Assembly (NCBI GenBank): GCA_021324435.1
Contig: JAJPIZ010000009.1
Span: forward strand, 124,001 to 188,000
Source: Anaerolineae bacterium
Lineage (GTDB): Bacteria; Chloroflexota; Anaerolineae; Anaerolineales; Villigracilaceae
Direction of reading: 5' to 3'
Length of the DNA: 64,000 bases
Part shown: positions 2,795 to 30,286 of the stretch, piece by piece
Numbering within the stretch: position 1 is the stretch's first letter
Layout of the letters: every line of letters starts with the position of its first letter
Notes under the pieces: model-generated
What the model saw: only the letters and a program-made list of their open reading frames with translations
What the model was told of the DNA's origin: nothing
The model's database searches: none
Program-made: the position numbers and the translations under genes

Positions 2795-3370
2795 ATGCTG
2801 GACGAACACCAGGCCATTCAGAAATTAAAACGAGGCGACATCGCTGGGTTGGAATTCCTGGTTGCGCGCTATCAGGTGAAAGCTGTACGTGCCGCCTACC
2901 TGATCACGCGGGACCTCGGGCTGGCCGAGGACATCGTACAGGATTCTTTTCTCCGGGCGTTTCGCTCCATTCGCGGCTTCGATGCGACGCGTCCGTTCGA
3001 GCCGTGGTTCATGCGGAGCGTGGTCAATGCTTCAGTGAAGATGATGCAGAGGTCGGCGCGGCAGGTTCCCCTTTCAGGGACTTTGGAGATCGGGGAAGAT
3101 GCGGATGAATCTCTTTTTGCGGAACCGGCCGCGACGGTTGAGTCGGTCGAGGCGCAGGTCGAGTCTATCGAAGTCCAACATCAAATCTGGGACGCCATGC
3201 AAAAGTTGTCGCCGCGCCAAAGAGCTGTAATCGTCCAAAGATATTTTTTGGAAATGAGCGAGGCCGAGATGGCGAAAGAATCCGGCACAGCGGCAGGCAC
3301 GATCAAATGGTTGTTGAACGCGGCGCGGGAACGATTGCGCAGCGTGCTCGCAGATAGGAGCGAGAAATGA
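2795..3370 (+). CDS. ECF-type RNA polymerase sigma-70 factor
   Basis: 191 aa, typical size for group 4 sigma factors. Region 2 spans about residues 22-90 (YLITRDLGLAEDIVQDSFLRAFRSIRGFD). Region 4 spans about 128-185 (MQKLSPRQRAVIVQRYFLEMSEAEMAKESGTAAGTIK), with an acidic linker. It directs RNA polymerase to a small regulon when released by an anti-sigma factor. The stop codon overlaps the start of the next gene by ATGA (3367-3370), so the pair is translationally coupled and very likely a sigma/anti-sigma unit. Confidence 0.95.
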   Translation: MLDEHQAIQKLKRGDIAGLEFLVARYQVKAVRAAYLITRDLGLAEDIVQDSFLRAFRSIRGFDATRPFEPWFMRSVVNASVKMMQRSARQVPLSGTLEIGEDADESLFAEPAATVESVEAQVESIEVQHQIWDAMQKLSPRQRAVIVQRYFLEMSEAEMAKESGTAAGTIKWLLNAARERLRSVLADRSEK

Positions 3371-5574
3371 ACGACAAACGCATGAAAGACGCGTTGGAAG
3401 CCCTCGCCCGCCGCGGCGTCCCCGAGAACACCAATTTGTGGCCGAACATTTCGGCGCGACTCGAAAGGGAATCTCCGATGACTACTCTTCGCACTCGCCC
3501 GTTTGTGGCGATCCTGATTGCCCTGTTGGTTCTGCTGATTCTGAGTGGCGTGGTTTATGCGTTGGGAAGATCGCTGGGCTATCTCCCCGGTTTTGGACTC
3601 GTTGAGCAAGGTGCGCCGATTCGTGTTTTGAAGGAGCCGGTCAGCGTCACGCGGGATGGCGTGACGGTGACTGTGAAAAGCGCTGTGCTCACCTCGGATA
3701 AATCCGACATCTACTATTTTGTATCTGGCGTACCTCGCTCTGCTTACCCTGAAGGCGAAGCGGCAACCGGTGGTTGTATTAAGCCACCCTACCTGCGCCT
3801 GCCTGATGGTACCAAGATGGATGTGGTTGGCAATATGCTGCCCATTCCTGCGGATGTGACCGAGGCCGTGTTTGTCCTGCCTTGTATTTTCAATACCCTG
3901 CCCGGCGCAGTTCCCGAAAATTGGGAGTTGCCGCTGCAGTTCGTTCCCGCGCCGCCAGAGTTGACGGTGATTCCGGTGACGGAAATCCTGCCTTCGCCTT
4001 CGCCAGCGCCCGAAGCGAATGCAACCATTCCTCCAGAAAACCCGCTGGTGATTACAAAAGTTCTTGACATTGGGAATAGTTTTGTTTTGATGGGCGAGTT
4101 CCGCTACGATGCCCTGGGCAAAAATGCGCTCACCGATGGTTCATCGTGGTGGATAAAAGATGTCAAGCTTATTGATTCGATTGGCACAGAGATTCCGCCA
4201 ACCTTCACCAATGATATCGAACCGCCAACGCCCACCAGCCCAAATGCCGAGGTATGGGTTTATAAAGTTGATAAAAACTTTGTCCCGCCGCTGACAATCA
4301 CGTATGAGGTTGAACACACTAGCCCTGTAGGAGCGAAAGAGCAGGCTGAATTTGAATTCGATGCCGGACAGAATCCGCAGGCAGGAGGCGAATGGATCGT
4401 GAATAAAGACTTCAAAATGGGCGGATACAATATCCGGCTGGTTTCGATATCTTCCAGTTCATACGGTTACTCCTTTCAGTTCAAAGCCGATCCCGGCGCA
4501 AGCGCGAATTGGATCAGTGTGGATATCGTTGGATATACTCCCAATTGCGGAGGAGGAGGCGGCGGGGACGATTTTCCCGTTGAATTCAGCTGGGAAGTTT
4601 GTTTCGCTGAAATTCCCGGTTCCTCCTGGGAATTCCCCAAAGGAAATTTGACGGCCATTCTCAATTTTCAGGCAGTGACGAGAGAGGAAAAAACCTTCCA
4701 GGTTGAATGGAGTCCAGACGCGTTGTTCGTTACGCCGACGCCGCAGGCGGGGCTTTGTCTCACGTTCGATAAATGGAATCAAGTGACAGGTCGGAACGAC
4801 ACGCTTCCGGCTGGAGTTAGCGGTAAGTTGGTCACAACCGTAAATGAAGGTGGGATGCTTCCTGCGATCTATATCGGCAATTTGGATGGGACGAACCTGC
4901 AAAGGATGGATGAGGGATCATGGCCCTCGCTTTCCATGGATGGGACGCGTCTGGCCTACAACGCGGCGGATGGGATCCGCGTTCGCGATCTTGCCAGCGG
5001 CCAGACGATTGCGATTGGAACAGACGGCTACCGCATTCTCTGGTCGCCCGATAACACGCGCCTGATGTTTACGAATACGTTTGCATTGTATGTGGTTAAC
5101 GCGGATGGTTCGGGACTCCAGAAGATCAACACAGCCCCAGCGCAGGTGATTTCGCCCACAGGCTGGGTTGATCGCCAGACCGTCGTCTATGCAGTGATGA
5201 GCGGGGACGGATTTACGTTTACGTCATATAACTTGCAAAGCGGCGAGACGAAATCCTTGTTCGCGATTCAAAACAAGGCAGGCTATGGCGCGATCTCGCC
5301 GGATGGACAGTGGATCGTGTTCGCAGACCGCGTCGTTGGCGAAATGAATTGGGGTATCTTCATCTCGCGGCTGGACGGCTCGGAGCGCAAGATGGTTGTA
5401 GAGCCGCAAGTTTCCACCGCCTTTAACTCGTTTTGGGGACCGGATGGGCAGTGGCTGATTCTCAATACTCAAGATACAAAAGGAGAAAATCGTGCCGTGC
5501 TGGTGAATCCATTTACGTGCCAGGTCGTTTCGCTGAATCAAGTGAATGGCGTGGTGGAGGGGTGGAGCCGGTAA
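3367..5574 (+). CDS. Membrane-bound anti-sigma-like protein with C-terminal TolB-like beta-propeller
   Basis: 735 aa. Residues 1-44 are cytoplasmic and include ALEALARRGVPENTNLWPNISARLE, the position expected for a sigma-binding segment. One transmembrane helix follows (~46-66, FVAILIALLVLLILSGVVYAL). The outside part has Ig-like/DUF4179-like beta domains to ~450. The last ~250 residues carry repeated WD40-like blades (WPSLSMDGTRLAYNAADG, LWSPDNTRLMFTN, AISPDGQWIVFAD, FWGPDGQWLILNT). It overlaps the sigma gene by 4 bp. Inference: the propeller senses an extracellular or envelope signal and controls sigma release. No zinc-finger anti-sigma motif (HxxxCxxC) is present. Confidence 0.8.
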   Translation: MNDKRMKDALEALARRGVPENTNLWPNISARLERESPMTTLRTRPFVAILIALLVLLILSGVVYALGRSLGYLPGFGLVEQGAPIRVLKEPVSVTRDGVTVTVKSAVLTSDKSDIYYFVSGVPRSAYPEGEAATGGCIKPPYLRLPDGTKMDVVGNMLPIPADVTEAVFVLPCIFNTLPGAVPENWELPLQFVPAPPELTVIPVTEILPSPSPAPEANATIPPENPLVITKVLDIGNSFVLMGEFRYDALGKNALTDGSSWWIKDVKLIDSIGTEIPPTFTNDIEPPTPTSPNAEVWVYKVDKNFVPPLTITYEVEHTSPVGAKEQAEFEFDAGQNPQAGGEWIVNKDFKMGGYNIRLVSISSSSYGYSFQFKADPGASANWISVDIVGYTPNCGGGGGGDDFPVEFSWEVCFAEIPGSSWEFPKGNLTAILNFQAVTREEKTFQVEWSPDALFVTPTPQAGLCLTFDKWNQVTGRNDTLPAGVSGKLVTTVNEGGMLPAIYIGNLDGTNLQRMDEGSWPSLSMDGTRLAYNAADGIRVRDLASGQTIAIGTDGYRILWSPDNTRLMFTNTFALYVVNADGSGLQKINTAPAQVISPTGWVDRQTVVYAVMSGDGFTFTSYNLQSGETKSLFAIQNKAGYGAISPDGQWIVFADRVVGEMNWGIFISRLDGSERKMVVEPQVSTAFNSFWGPDGQWLILNTQDTKGENRAVLVNPFTCQVVSLNQVNGVVEGWSR

Positions 5575-11946: not shown

Positions 11947-13680
11947 ATGCTGACCGAACTTCACATTCAAAATTTCGCCATCATAGACAAACTCGATCTC
12001 AAACTTGGCGCGGGACTCATCATCCTCACGGGTGAGACCGGCGCGGGCAAGTCCATCATCCTCGACGCGGTGGATATGCTCGTGGGCGGCCGCGCGGACG
12101 CGACAGTGGTCAGAGCAGAATCAGACGCGGCAGTGGTCGAGGGTGTGTTCGCGCTCAAAGGTCCGGAAAAAGAAGCGGTGAACGAAATCCTCAAGCGCGA
12201 AGAATTATTGGATGATCCCAACTATGTGACCGTCGCGCGCGAAGTCCGGCGTGAGGGACGCAGTGTGGCCCGCGTCAATGGCCGGACCGTGAACCTGACT
12301 CTGCTCAAGGAACTTGGTTCGGCGCTGATAGATATCCATGGCCAATCCGAGCACTTGTCTTTGCTCGATCCGCGCGCGCATCTTGGTTTGTTGGATCGTT
12401 ACGCCGAAGTCGCCAAGCCGCTCGCTGAATATCGTCAGACCTATCAAAAGTTATTGAACGTCCGCAAGGAGTTGAACGATCTACGTCAGGCGCAGGTGGA
12501 CGCCGACCGCCGCGTGGAGATGCTGATGTTTCAGGCGCAGGAGATCGAGGACGCCAAGCTCAAGCCCGGCGAAGATGAAGAATTGAAAAAGGAACGCGAC
12601 CGACTGGCCAACGCCGAGTCGCTCGCGCGGTACGCGCAACACGCGCTGGAAGTGTTGGACGAAGGCTCGCAGGAATCGCCCGCGGCCAGCGACTTGGTGG
12701 GGCAGGCCGCGCAGGCCTTGGCCGCGCTTGCCAAAATTGACAAGGCGCAGGAGGAACTCGCCGACGAAGCCGCCACGCTCGAAGACACACTGGCGGATGT
12801 GATTCGTTCTCTGCGCGATTACCTCGATGAAATCGAATTCAACCCCAAACGTTTGGAGGAAGCCGAAGAACGTTTGAATTTGATTCACAATCTCACGCGC
12901 AAGTATGGCGGAAGCATTCCGTCCGTGATCGCCTTCGGCGCGGACGCGCGCAAGCAGTTGGAAAATATTTCAGGCGCAAGCGAGCGCATCGGCGCGTTGG
13001 AAGCCGAGGAAGATAAATTACTGCAAACTTTATCCAGGCAGGCGCAGGCGCTTTCGGACAAACGTAAAGCCGCCGCGGAGAAATTAGGCAAGGGCATCGA
13101 GATCGAACTGGATGACCTCAAGATGGCTGCCGCCCGCTTCGGCGTGGACTTTCAGACGCGTCCCGATCCGAACGGCATTCCCCTGGCGGACGGTTCACGC
13201 GTGGCGTTCGATCAAAATGGATTTGATCGCGTGGAATTTCTTGTCGCCCCGAATCCCGGCGAGGGACTCAAACCGCTGGCGCGCATCGCCTCCGGCGGTG
13301 AGACCTCGCGCCTGATGCTGGCGTTAAAGAATATTCTGGCGAAGGCTGATGAAATCCCCTCGCTCATCTTCGATGAAATTGATCAGGGCATCGGCGGGCG
13401 CGTGGGACTCGTGGTTGGCTACAAACTCTGGCACCTCGGACGCAACCATCAGGTCTTTTGCGTGACGCACCTGCCGCAACTGGCCGCCTTCGGCGATGAA
13501 CACTATCAGGTGCAGAAACTGATTCAAGGCAACCGCACGCTGACGCGCGTCGAACGTCTCACCGGCGAGCCGCAACTGCTGGAACTGTCACAGATGCTGG
13601 GCGAAGTCGGCGAAGGGACTCTGCGCTCCGCGCACGAGTTGATGCAGGTGGCGCGGCAGATGATCAAGAGCGGGAAATAA
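11947..13680 (+). CDS. recN: DNA repair protein RecN
   Basis: 577 aa, full length. The N-terminal ATPase half has Walker A GETGAGKS (29-36) and ARVNGRTVN. The middle is a long coiled coil (~150-360) and the C-terminal half has the signature IASGGETSRLMLALK, Walker B SLIFDEIDQGIGG and VTHLPQLAAFGDEHY. RecN is an SMC-like protein that acts at double-strand breaks. The final 30 bp (13647-13676) recur exactly at 14574-14603, on the far side of an inserted MNT/HEPN pair. The ancestral gene end was thus probably split by the insertion without loss of function. Confidence 0.97.
   Translation: MLTELHIQNFAIIDKLDLKLGAGLIILTGETGAGKSIILDAVDMLVGGRADATVVRAESDAAVVEGVFALKGPEKEAVNEILKREELLDDPNYVTVAREVRREGRSVARVNGRTVNLTLLKELGSALIDIHGQSEHLSLLDPRAHLGLLDRYAEVAKPLAEYRQTYQKLLNVRKELNDLRQAQVDADRRVEMLMFQAQEIEDAKLKPGEDEELKKERDRLANAESLARYAQHALEVLDEGSQESPAASDLVGQAAQALAALAKIDKAQEELADEAATLEDTLADVIRSLRDYLDEIEFNPKRLEEAEERLNLIHNLTRKYGGSIPSVIAFGADARKQLENISGASERIGALEAEEDKLLQTLSRQAQALSDKRKAAAEKLGKGIEIELDDLKMAAARFGVDFQTRPDPNGIPLADGSRVAFDQNGFDRVEFLVAPNPGEGLKPLARIASGGETSRLMLALKNILAKADEIPSLIFDEIDQGIGGRVGLVVGYKLWHLGRNHQVFCVTHLPQLAAFGDEHYQVQKLIQGNRTLTRVERLTGEPQLLELSQMLGEVGEGTLRSAHELMQVARQMIKSGK
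13647..13676 (+). repeat. Left copy of 30-bp direct repeat flanking the MNT/HEPN cassette
   Basis: The last 30 bp of recN before the stop, starting GGTGGCGCGGCAGATGATC, are identical to 14574-14603. The left copy continues ATAA, the right GTAG, both giving a stop codon in the recN frame. Confidence 0.95.
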
Positions 13681-13693
13681 GTATAATAAGCAT

Positions 13694-14110
13694 ATGAATG
13701 TCCGACAGCAGAAGATCGAGTCAATATGTAGGAAGCGGGGGATCAAGGCGTTATACGTCTTCGGCAGTCGCGCCGCTGAAGTGCTTTATGCGCTTGACGA
13801 TGACGCGTACCAATTCCAGAAATCGCAAAGCGACTTGGATATTGGTATCCTGATCCCCTCTCCATTCTCGGTTGATGACAAAGTTGATTTGATGCTTGAA
13901 CTGGAAGGCCTCTTCAATGTGCCGCGTGTTGACCTGCTTGTGTTGCAGGAAGTGGACGCCTTCCTTGCCGCCAACATTATCCGCGGCGAACGCATCTACG
14001 CCGAGGATTCGTACCTGGCCGATGAATATGAACTCTTCGTGCTCCGCCGCGCCGGCGATTTGGCCGAACTGGAACGCGACCGTATGGCAACAATCCTGCA
14101 CGAGGCATGA
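13694..14110 (+). CDS. mntA: MNT-domain nucleotidyltransferase (antitoxin of HEPN/MNT pair)
   Basis: 138 aa. The minimal nucleotidyltransferase motif is VFGSRAAEVL (~25-34) and SDLDIGILIPSP (~51-62), with RVDLLVL providing the third acidic residue; the GS to DLD spacing is longer than usual. MntA-type antitoxins AMPylate and silence their HEPN partner. TATAAT (13682-13687) starts 2 nt after the recN stop and only 6 nt before the ATG, so the pair has its own, probably leaderless, promoter. The HEPN gene begins 4 nt after its stop. Confidence 0.9.
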   Translation: MNVRQQKIESICRKRGIKALYVFGSRAAEVLYALDDDAYQFQKSQSDLDIGILIPSPFSVDDKVDLMLELEGLFNVPRVDLLVLQEVDAFLAANIIRGERIYAEDSYLADEYELFVLRRAGDLAELERDRMATILHEA

Positions 14111-14114
14111 CGTG

Positions 14115-14570
14115 ATGCCGGGTAAAATTTCCAAACGAGTCGTCAGTGACCGCCTGATGTGGGTGGATCGGATGTTGAAAGAAATCCGTTCCCTGCCGCT
14201 GAATTCCAAACCGATCTTCATGCAAGACAGCCGGAATGTCTGGGCGGCGGAATCCTGCCTGCGCCGCGCGTTGGAGGCTATCTTTGATTTGGGCAGACAT
14301 ACCCTCGCGAAGGGATTCGGCGAGGCGGTGACGGAATATAAGGAAATCGCCGTGGCATTGAACAAAGACGAGGTAATCTCTGCCGGTGACTTTGAATTGA
14401 TGCTCAAACTGGCGGGCTATCGCAACCGCCTCGTGCACTTCTATCATGATGTGAGCGCGGATGAGTTGTACGAGATATGCGCTTCTCATCTGGAAGATGT
14501 TGAGCGGATCGCGAACACTTTACGTTCATGGCTTGCGAATCACCCAAATTCTCTGGATGAAACTTTATAA
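14115..14570 (+). CDS. hepT: HEPN-domain toxin (HepT-like, DUF86 type)
   Basis: 151 aa from the ATG at 14115 (a GTG at 14112 is also possible). Four-helix HEPN protein with the RNase motif RX4HXY as RNRLVHFY (~100-107), preceded by DSRNVWAAESCLRRALEAIFDLG. HepT is a ribonuclease toxin neutralised by its MNT partner, encoded just upstream with a 4-bp gap. The pair is bracketed by a 30-bp duplication of the recN end, evidence of insertion at this site. Confidence 0.88.
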   Translation: MPGKISKRVVSDRLMWVDRMLKEIRSLPLNSKPIFMQDSRNVWAAESCLRRALEAIFDLGRHTLAKGFGEAVTEYKEIAVALNKDEVISAGDFELMLKLAGYRNRLVHFYHDVSADELYEICASHLEDVERIANTLRSWLANHPNSLDETL

Positions 14571-14573
14571 AAC

Positions 14574-14607
14574 GGTGGCGCGGCAGATGATCAAGAGCGG
14601 GAAGTAG
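14574..14607 (+). repeat. Right copy of the recN 3'-end repeat (with stop codon)
   Basis: Positions 14574-14603 repeat recN 13647-13676 without a mismatch, followed by GTAG. It is immediately followed by the palindromic element at 14608, which would be the natural recN terminator. This suggests that this is the original recN end, separated by the insert. Confidence 0.9.
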
Positions 14608-14655
14608 CCTCTCCCCATTCCTCCTCAAATTCCAAAGAAATTTGAGGAGGAATGG
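14608..14655. terminator. Palindromic element/terminator (GGGGAGAGG family)
   Basis: CCCATTCCTCCTCAAATT and its complement form an 18-bp stem with a short AAAG-type loop, followed on the plus strand by CATTTT. It probably ends recN or hepT transcripts and belongs to the palindrome family also found at 7478, 9894, 33914 and 54835. Confidence 0.65.
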
Positions 14656-14683
14656 GGCATTTTCCATTACAATCCAAACCACC

Positions 14684-15307
14684 ATGGACGATCAATGGCT
14701 CTCCCTCCACGAAGCCGCCGAACTGCTCGGCGTCCACCCCAGCACGGTGCGCGCCTGGTCCAACAAAGGCATCCTGCCCGTGCATCGCACGCAGGGCGGG
14801 CATCGCCGCTACAAGCGCAGTGAAGTCCTTTTGTGGGCCGACACGATGCGCGGCGGACAGGCCATCGAACCGGTCAGTGTGATTCAGGCCGCGGTGCGCA
14901 ACATCCGCTTGCAAATTTCCGAGGGGCGGCTCGAAGCGGAAGCCTGGTATCAAAAATTGGATGAAGACGCGCGCGCCCAGTATCGTCAATCGGCGCGTTC
15001 GTTGTTTCAGGGCTTGATCAATTATCTGTCATCGGACGGAGATGAAGCCTCCTCCGAGGCGCATTCCATCGGATACGAATACGCTTCGCGCGCCCGCCGC
15101 TTCGGTCTCAACAACGTGGATGCGGCGCGCGCCTTTTTGTTTTTCCGCGATGCTTTGCTTCAATCTGTCATTCAGGTCTATCAGGAAGCCAACGTGCCGT
15201 CGGGTCAGGCCTGGGGCGATCTTCTGCGCAAGGTCAATGCGTTCACGGATATGATCTTGTTGAATCTGCTTGAAACGTATCGAGCCATGGAGCATGCCAA
15301 TCCATGA
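14684..15307 (+). CDS. MerR/excisionase-type HTH regulator with RsbRD-like domain
   Basis: 207 aa from the ATG at 14684, with TACAAT 10 nt upstream. Residues 4-55 are a MerR-like winged helix (SLHEAAELLGVHPSTVRAWSNKGILPVHRTQGGHRRY). Residues ~75-205 look like the RsbRD N-terminal domain of stressosome-type proteins (ARSLFQGLINYLSSDG ... GYEYASRARRFGLNNVDAARAFLFFRD). The combination suggests a DNA-binding protein whose helical globin-like domain takes a signal. No target operator was identified. Confidence 0.8.
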   Translation: MDDQWLSLHEAAELLGVHPSTVRAWSNKGILPVHRTQGGHRRYKRSEVLLWADTMRGGQAIEPVSVIQAAVRNIRLQISEGRLEAEAWYQKLDEDARAQYRQSARSLFQGLINYLSSDGDEASSEAHSIGYEYASRARRFGLNNVDAARAFLFFRDALLQSVIQVYQEANVPSGQAWGDLLRKVNAFTDMILLNLLETYRAMEHANP

Positions 15308-29974: not shown

Positions 29975-30286
29975 CTACCTTATGTATTTAGTTGAATAAA
30001 CTAAATTTGCCTCACGAACGACCTCGTCGCGAAAATACTTGCTGAGGAAACCGACTGTGTTCAAATCCACCTTGCGGCCAAAGATTTTGCTCAGCTCTTC
30101 CTGCATAGCAAAAAAAGCAAACCCCAGCGTTTTTCCTGACTCGAACTCCATCAGAACATCAATATCGCTGTTGGAGCCGAAATCGTCGCGCAAAACCGAA
30201 CCGAAAAAGGCCAGTTTTCGGATGTGATTCCTTCGGCAGAACTCCACCAATTCCCTACGCGGAACTTTGATTTTGAACTTGTTCAT
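29975..30286 (-). CDS. Orphan MNT-domain nucleotidyltransferase
   Basis: 103 aa, complete minimal nucleotidyltransferase: FFGSVLRDDFGSNSDIDVLMEF (~28-49) with KVDLNTVGF as the third acidic element. Such proteins are normally antitoxins of HEPN toxins. Here no HEPN gene is adjacent: upstream is rsmI and 5 bp downstream starts the restriction endonuclease. It is probably the first gene of the MNT-REase-MTase unit. Confidence 0.85.
   Translation of the reverse strand: MNKFKIKVPRRELVEFCRRNHIRKLAFFGSVLRDDFGSNSDIDVLMEFESGKTLGFAFFAMQEELSKIFGRKVDLNTVGFLSKYFRDEVVREANLVYSTKYIR

Follow-up and report, generated by a model that had tools for sequence, protein, structure and literature searches.

A predicted toxin-antitoxin pair, an MNT gene followed by a HEPN gene, is inserted at the 3' end of recN in this Anaerolineae genome, and the last 30 bp of recN are repeated on either side of it. 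The window, meaning the whole 64,000-nucleotide stretch of DNA analysed here, contains the insert (Table 1), one congener retains the empty site, and some related pairs recur behind other genes, the ends of which are duplicated. The feature picked out in an earlier note, made from the sequence alone, is thus a real insertion scar, and the insert is free of any integrase. Our preferred explanation, to which we give a slightly better than even chance, is that the MNT/HepT module entered at the recN stop codon through an integrase-independent event which duplicated the local target.

Table 1. Features at the recN end of the window (positions are those of the whole stretch).
Feature	Position	Strand	Evidence or remark
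recN, target gene, intact	11947..13680	+	577-aa ORF; SMC_N PF02463, E 3.5e-16
Copy 1 of recN end	13647..13676	+	30 nt exact; 33 nt at 97%
Insert, 897 bp, bounded by the exact copies	13677..14573	+	Absent between recN and merR in G004
TATAAT, possible -10 box	13682..13687	+	6 nt upstream of MNT start
MNT nucleotidyltransferase, predicted antitoxin (MntA-like)	13694..14110	+	Polbeta PF18765, E 1.6e-12; NTP_transf_2 PF01909, E 1.8e-5
HEPN, predicted HepT-type RNase toxin with RX4HXY	14115..14570	+	PF01934, E 1.1e-18
Copy 2 of recN end, TAG stop	14574..14603	+	Read as displaced original end
19-bp perfect inverted repeat with T-rich tail, terminator-like	14613..14657	+	3' of copy 2
merR-type gene	14684..15307	+	PF12728, PF00376; recN's neighbour at the empty site in G004, by synteny

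The insertion scar behind recN

The exact repeat of the recN end that had been claimed beyond the HEPN gene was confirmed, the two copies starting 927 nt apart. Of the four exact direct repeats of at least 18 nt in the window this one is the longest, and as five mononucleotide shuffles of the window contained none of that length, a chance origin was ruled out. The length of recN is normal, since recN of the congeners aligns over residues 1-577 or 1-576. As the in-frame end of the gene, copy 1 finishes AAA TAA, and copy 2 finishes AAG TAG, so the two stop codons read earlier are those present. This difference would be expected if the duplication stops at GGGAA and the insert supplied the next bases of copy 1. 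Apart from a TATAAT box the insert holds only the MNT gene and the HepT-type HEPN gene, and no integrase, recombinase or transposase was found among its ORFs and profile matches. The 577-aa recN and the two-gene insert together bear out the claim of an insertion at the gene end that left recN intact and brought no integrase.

The nearest relatives compared for the states before and after insertion were the congeners. An empty site, which the earlier note had suggested looking for in related genomes, was found in the congener G004, where merR lies 63 nt past the end of the recN match and the gene order recN, merR, DUF, holA is preserved. The recN end is single in each of five congeners, although in one of them (G001) only 0.5 kb downstream is readable on the contig. 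With up to 3 mismatches allowed, a 25-nt core of the recN end occurs once in four of these five and twice only in this genome; it was not found in the fifth (G005), whose recN end diverges more. Multiple recN ends were for this reason rejected as an ordinary trait of the genus. The congeners depart from the core at 1-3 bases, or more, whereas the two 30-nt copies of the window are identical, which indicates that the second copy stems from this lineage. The MNT gene is present in this genome alone among the six of the genus.

Beyond the congeners, no second recN end was found in the readable DNA (0.5 to 17 kb) downstream of recN in 20 relatives, where the best scores were 6-14 compared to 30 here. 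The proposed search for similar inserts at other recN ends therefore yielded nothing, and an element specific to recN was rejected. In 6 of the 20 relatives read, merR was located behind recN at distances of 63 nt to 3 kb (2.4 kb in G002 and 1.5 kb in G005), so the recN neighbourhood is otherwise variable; merR was not found behind recN in G003. In G002 an Mrr-type nuclease gene lies between recN and merR (L037, 15695-17155) without a repeat of the recN end. A GC-rich stretch, CGCCAGGGTGAGGGGGGCACCCTAGCG, common to three genomes of the family (loci L015, L016 and L018) within about 120 nt after recN, could represent a small RNA or else a dispersed repeat.

The HEPN protein scored 71.4 bits against the NCBIfam HepT model, above its cut-off of 60, and the MNT protein 55.5 bits against the MntA model, under its cut-off of 60. 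PADLOC gave only weak or unnamed matches to the pair. The motif RX4HXY, given for HepT in the searched text of PMC7641770, appears in the window HEPN as R103-H108-Y110 and was present in 75 of 79 pairs. GSX10DXD was not found in the window MNT, which has a spacer of 21 residues; GSXnDXD occurs in 72 of the 79 MNT/HEPN pairs, with n = 21 in 49 of those 72. The window pair therefore resembles Type VII HepT/MntA, as described in that text (PMC7641770), in its HepT model score, its RX4HXY motif and the MNT gene upstream, and differs in a spacer of 21 rather than 10 and in the MntA model score below cut-off. If the analogy holds, HEPN would act as an RNase that MNT silences by nucleotide transfer.

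The TATAAT box noticed earlier is present, although it follows the recN stop after 1 base and not 2, and its position suggests that the MNT transcript would be leaderless. By eye, the box stands ahead of MNT in 11 of 14 close pairs; of the 79 pairs in the wider set, only 16 have a -10-like box. A sigma-70 scan found no full promoter (0.8 expected) and one terminator-like site compared to 1.1 expected in shuffles, so neither kind of signal is supported by count. Accordingly, of the terminator palindrome described after copy 2, the inverted repeat stands and its function as a terminator is not borne out by the count.

Related pairs and their flanking repeats

Within the family, 22 of 152 genomes, this one included, contain an MNT match. 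Besides the window pair there are 13 close MNT relatives (53-72% identity), all at other loci, and each is followed by a recognisable HEPN stretch, which is shortened in two of them (L068, L071) and split in two more (L067, L072). In five of the 13, the pair lies between direct repeats that consist of the upstream gene's end. The genes concerned encode a sigma-70 factor (L091, L096; repeats of 63 and 125 nt), a bidomain oxidoreductase (L087, L089; 34 and 59 nt) and Memo (L088; 55 nt). Among the remainder, L094 is flanked by a TIR-gene fragment and L099 by a palindromic repeat, L095 and L098 have distant low-complexity or weak matches only, and four have no flanking repeat. No other common sequence was seen when the unaligned flanks of the 14 close pairs were inspected by eye.

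Target repeats across the module family measure 33 to 494 nt overall and 33 to 125 nt at gene ends. The longest belongs to L144, where a whole gene of unassigned function (159 aa) lies on both sides of the MNT/HEPN pair, at 3014-3507 and again after the pair (494 nt, 75%). The repeat at L170 has 55 open codons and is probably a gene end. In the eight gene-end or whole-gene cases the start of the right copy ranges from 1 nt ahead of the HEPN stop to 31 nt beyond it, and 15-130 nt separate the left copy from MNT. For L096, where the HEPN frame is shifted and the main test overestimated the right-copy distance, the value was taken from the comparison of its sigma-70 copies.

To the loci already collected, a public-genome scan contributed the best 80 of 209 relatives, 9 of these being among the loci already. 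From 96 loci with a HEPN match, 9 duplicates, 2 remote pairs and 4 with flanks below 60 nt were removed, leaving 81 pairs whose 300-nt flanks were examined for a direct repeat with a score of at least 20. Such a repeat flanks 16 of the 81 pairs, compared to 4 of 444 shifted windows taken from these loci and 1 of 399 mismatched flanks. At a score of at least 25 the counts are 13 of 81, 2 of 444 and 1 of 399, and the lone mismatched control above 25 joins L087 with L089, which have the same target gene. A second test layout gave 18 of 82 pairs at a score of at least 20. The other 65 of the 81 pairs lack a repeat at score 20, which counts against insertion with target duplication. Among the 16 repeat-flanked pairs, the repeat is a gene 3' end in the window, L087, L088, L089, L091 and L096 and a whole gene in L144. 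In eight others (L094, L099, L113, L124, L128, L140, L154 and L178) it is intergenic, palindromic, low-complexity or a TIR fragment, and some of these may be dispersed repeats.

Gene ends were surveyed at 60 loci, comprising the best 30 sigma-70 and the best 30 oxidoreductase matches. A gene-end repeat was found within 1.5 kb downstream at none of the 55 ends without a pair, and at three of the five ends that carry one. Independent events are fewer than loci, since L091 and L096, from one genus, probably share one event and L087 and L089 share a target gene.

Other HepT pairs are also repeat-flanked (4 of 30, TIR-gene-start fragments among the repeats), so the shifted-window control does not make this behaviour special to MNT/HEPN, and flank duplication is probably broader than the family seen in the window. 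In L272 (G083:C3, 4403-9073) six TIR-gene-start fragments separate several toxin-antitoxin-like modules beside an intact TIR-HD gene, and such fragments flank HepT pairs also in L258, L264 and L265.

Within this genome, no second copy of the module was found at the DNA level in the assembly. Three other MNT regions (L276-L278) listed no direct repeat in a self-comparison, the threshold of which also missed the window's own 30-nt repeat. The window carries a further MNT gene at 30008-30256 on the minus strand, with TATAAT before its start, behind the end of another gene which we take to be rsmI.

Possible routes of insertion

In the explanation we favour, a minimal module made up of the TATAAT box and the two genes would have inserted at the recN stop codon and duplicated the local target, 30 bp in this case. 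The left copy would preserve recN, with its last base and stop provided by the insert, and the right copy would be the original end, displaced together with its stop and terminator. As to the molecular step, a staggered break might, for example, have captured a DNA fragment and then been filled in. The module could have been retained because its loss is costly (addiction), and selection of survivors would form part of the process. That the duplicated ends belong to differing local genes argues for insertion with target duplication rather than for an integrase with one fixed site.

The main rival, which we regard as rather unlikely, is that a small circular DNA holding the module plus a short gene-end copy integrated by a single crossover into the matching chromosomal gene end, a process that can also stack modules. 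The oxidoreductase loci argue for it. There carriers from several genera have a similar tail beside MNT, and other tails on the right copies; the tail beside MNT persists without that gene in G003, and in L087 the second gene-end copy precedes a second, different MNT/HEPN module. Transfer of the module with its gene end by recombination fits these tails better than fresh duplication does, which counts against our preferred explanation, and together with the stacking at L087 they suggest that modules also move between species in this way. The six TIR-gene-start fragments between the modules of L272 point in the same direction. However, such a circle requires a donor with a matching gene end for every target, and the 30-nt recN copies are identical although the congeners differ. 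No HEPN relative was found on the known plasmids, phages or viral contigs searched, and carriage on these was rejected. When the two sigma-70 copies of L096 were compared with 17 relatives, the right copy was more diverged in nearly every comparison and a mosaic test found no crossover point. At the oxidoreductase end of L223, in G003, TATAAT and MNT-like first codons are kept and the MNT gene is gone; this remnant is probably a deletion scar.

Site-specific integration at gene 3' ends, to which the earlier note had likened the feature, would need a tyrosine or serine recombinase acting in trans on a stripped integrative element. It would explain the restored gene end, and repeats of 33 to 125 nt at gene ends fall within the range of attachment sites. 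We nevertheless judge it improbable. Targets differ between hosts, members of the family standing behind sigma-70, bidomain oxidoreductase and Memo genes with those ends duplicated, and one module lies between two copies of a whole gene with a repeat of 494 nt. Such varied targets and lengths are not those of one integrase with one attachment site, the window insert holds no recombinase, and no common ends were seen by eye in the flanks of the close pairs; an enzyme bound to fixed ends or to one target is thereby made less likely. A further possibility is template switching in the course of replication or repair. This route, in which a nascent strand copies the module elsewhere and rejoins its template upstream of the exit, duplicating the stretch between, would give variable duplications beside a templated insert with no enzyme of its own and agrees with the absence of common ends, but the module is single in this assembly, so the template would be foreign DNA, and the route is here inseparable from break capture. 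We rate it the least probable of all.

Returning to insertion with target duplication, a broader extension is possible but doubtful: toxin-antitoxin modules in these bacteria may spread and stack as recombinase-free cassettes, with the flank duplicated, the host gene left whole and the module retained by addiction. If so, the flanks duplicated would be a gene 3' end here and TIR-gene starts elsewhere, and a transposase-free route would build toxin-antitoxin arrays.

Comparison with known insertion systems

Insertions of MNT-HEPN modules between close relatives were noted by Makarova et al. in 2009 (PMC2701414), and the presence or absence of the module between close relatives (there Deinococcus and Thermus) is common to both studies. 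The searched text of that paper does not contain the term 'direct repeat' or describe a duplication. Genomic islands at trmE or dusA are examples of integrative elements at gene 3' ends, which also duplicate the gene end and restore the gene. Unlike them, the window insert is only 0.9 kb and holds no integrase gene, and the target is not a single attachment site, as recN, sigma-70, oxidoreductase, Memo and other sequences are used.

The closest parallel is offered by restriction-modification systems, whose insertion with long target duplications was reportedly described by Nobusato et al. in 2000. Our literature search did not show long duplications reported at the flanks of MNT/HEPN or other toxin-antitoxin modules; the founding restriction-modification papers (Nobusato 2000; Furuta 2010) lay outside the search, so prior mention is possible. 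In the texts searched, restriction-modification systems insert with long, variable target duplications (PMC3874152, PMC3031569, PMC1643837), of about 100 bp in one account (PMC3874152). Both cases involve addiction-type genes, no linked mobile element and long variable target duplications (PMC3874152, as far as its searched text goes). Here, too, there is a single target where the insert is missing, repeat length and target vary, and no mobile element or transposase is linked. The present case differs in that a toxin-antitoxin pair is what was inserted, that most targets are 3' ends of genes which remain intact, and that the evidence was drawn from different species and not from two strains. 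Duplicated gene ends, varied targets and an empty congener site are readable scars that make the transposase-free entry of toxin-antitoxin modules testable, and through them the MNT/HEPN family links such modules to the long-target-duplication insertion known for restriction-modification systems.
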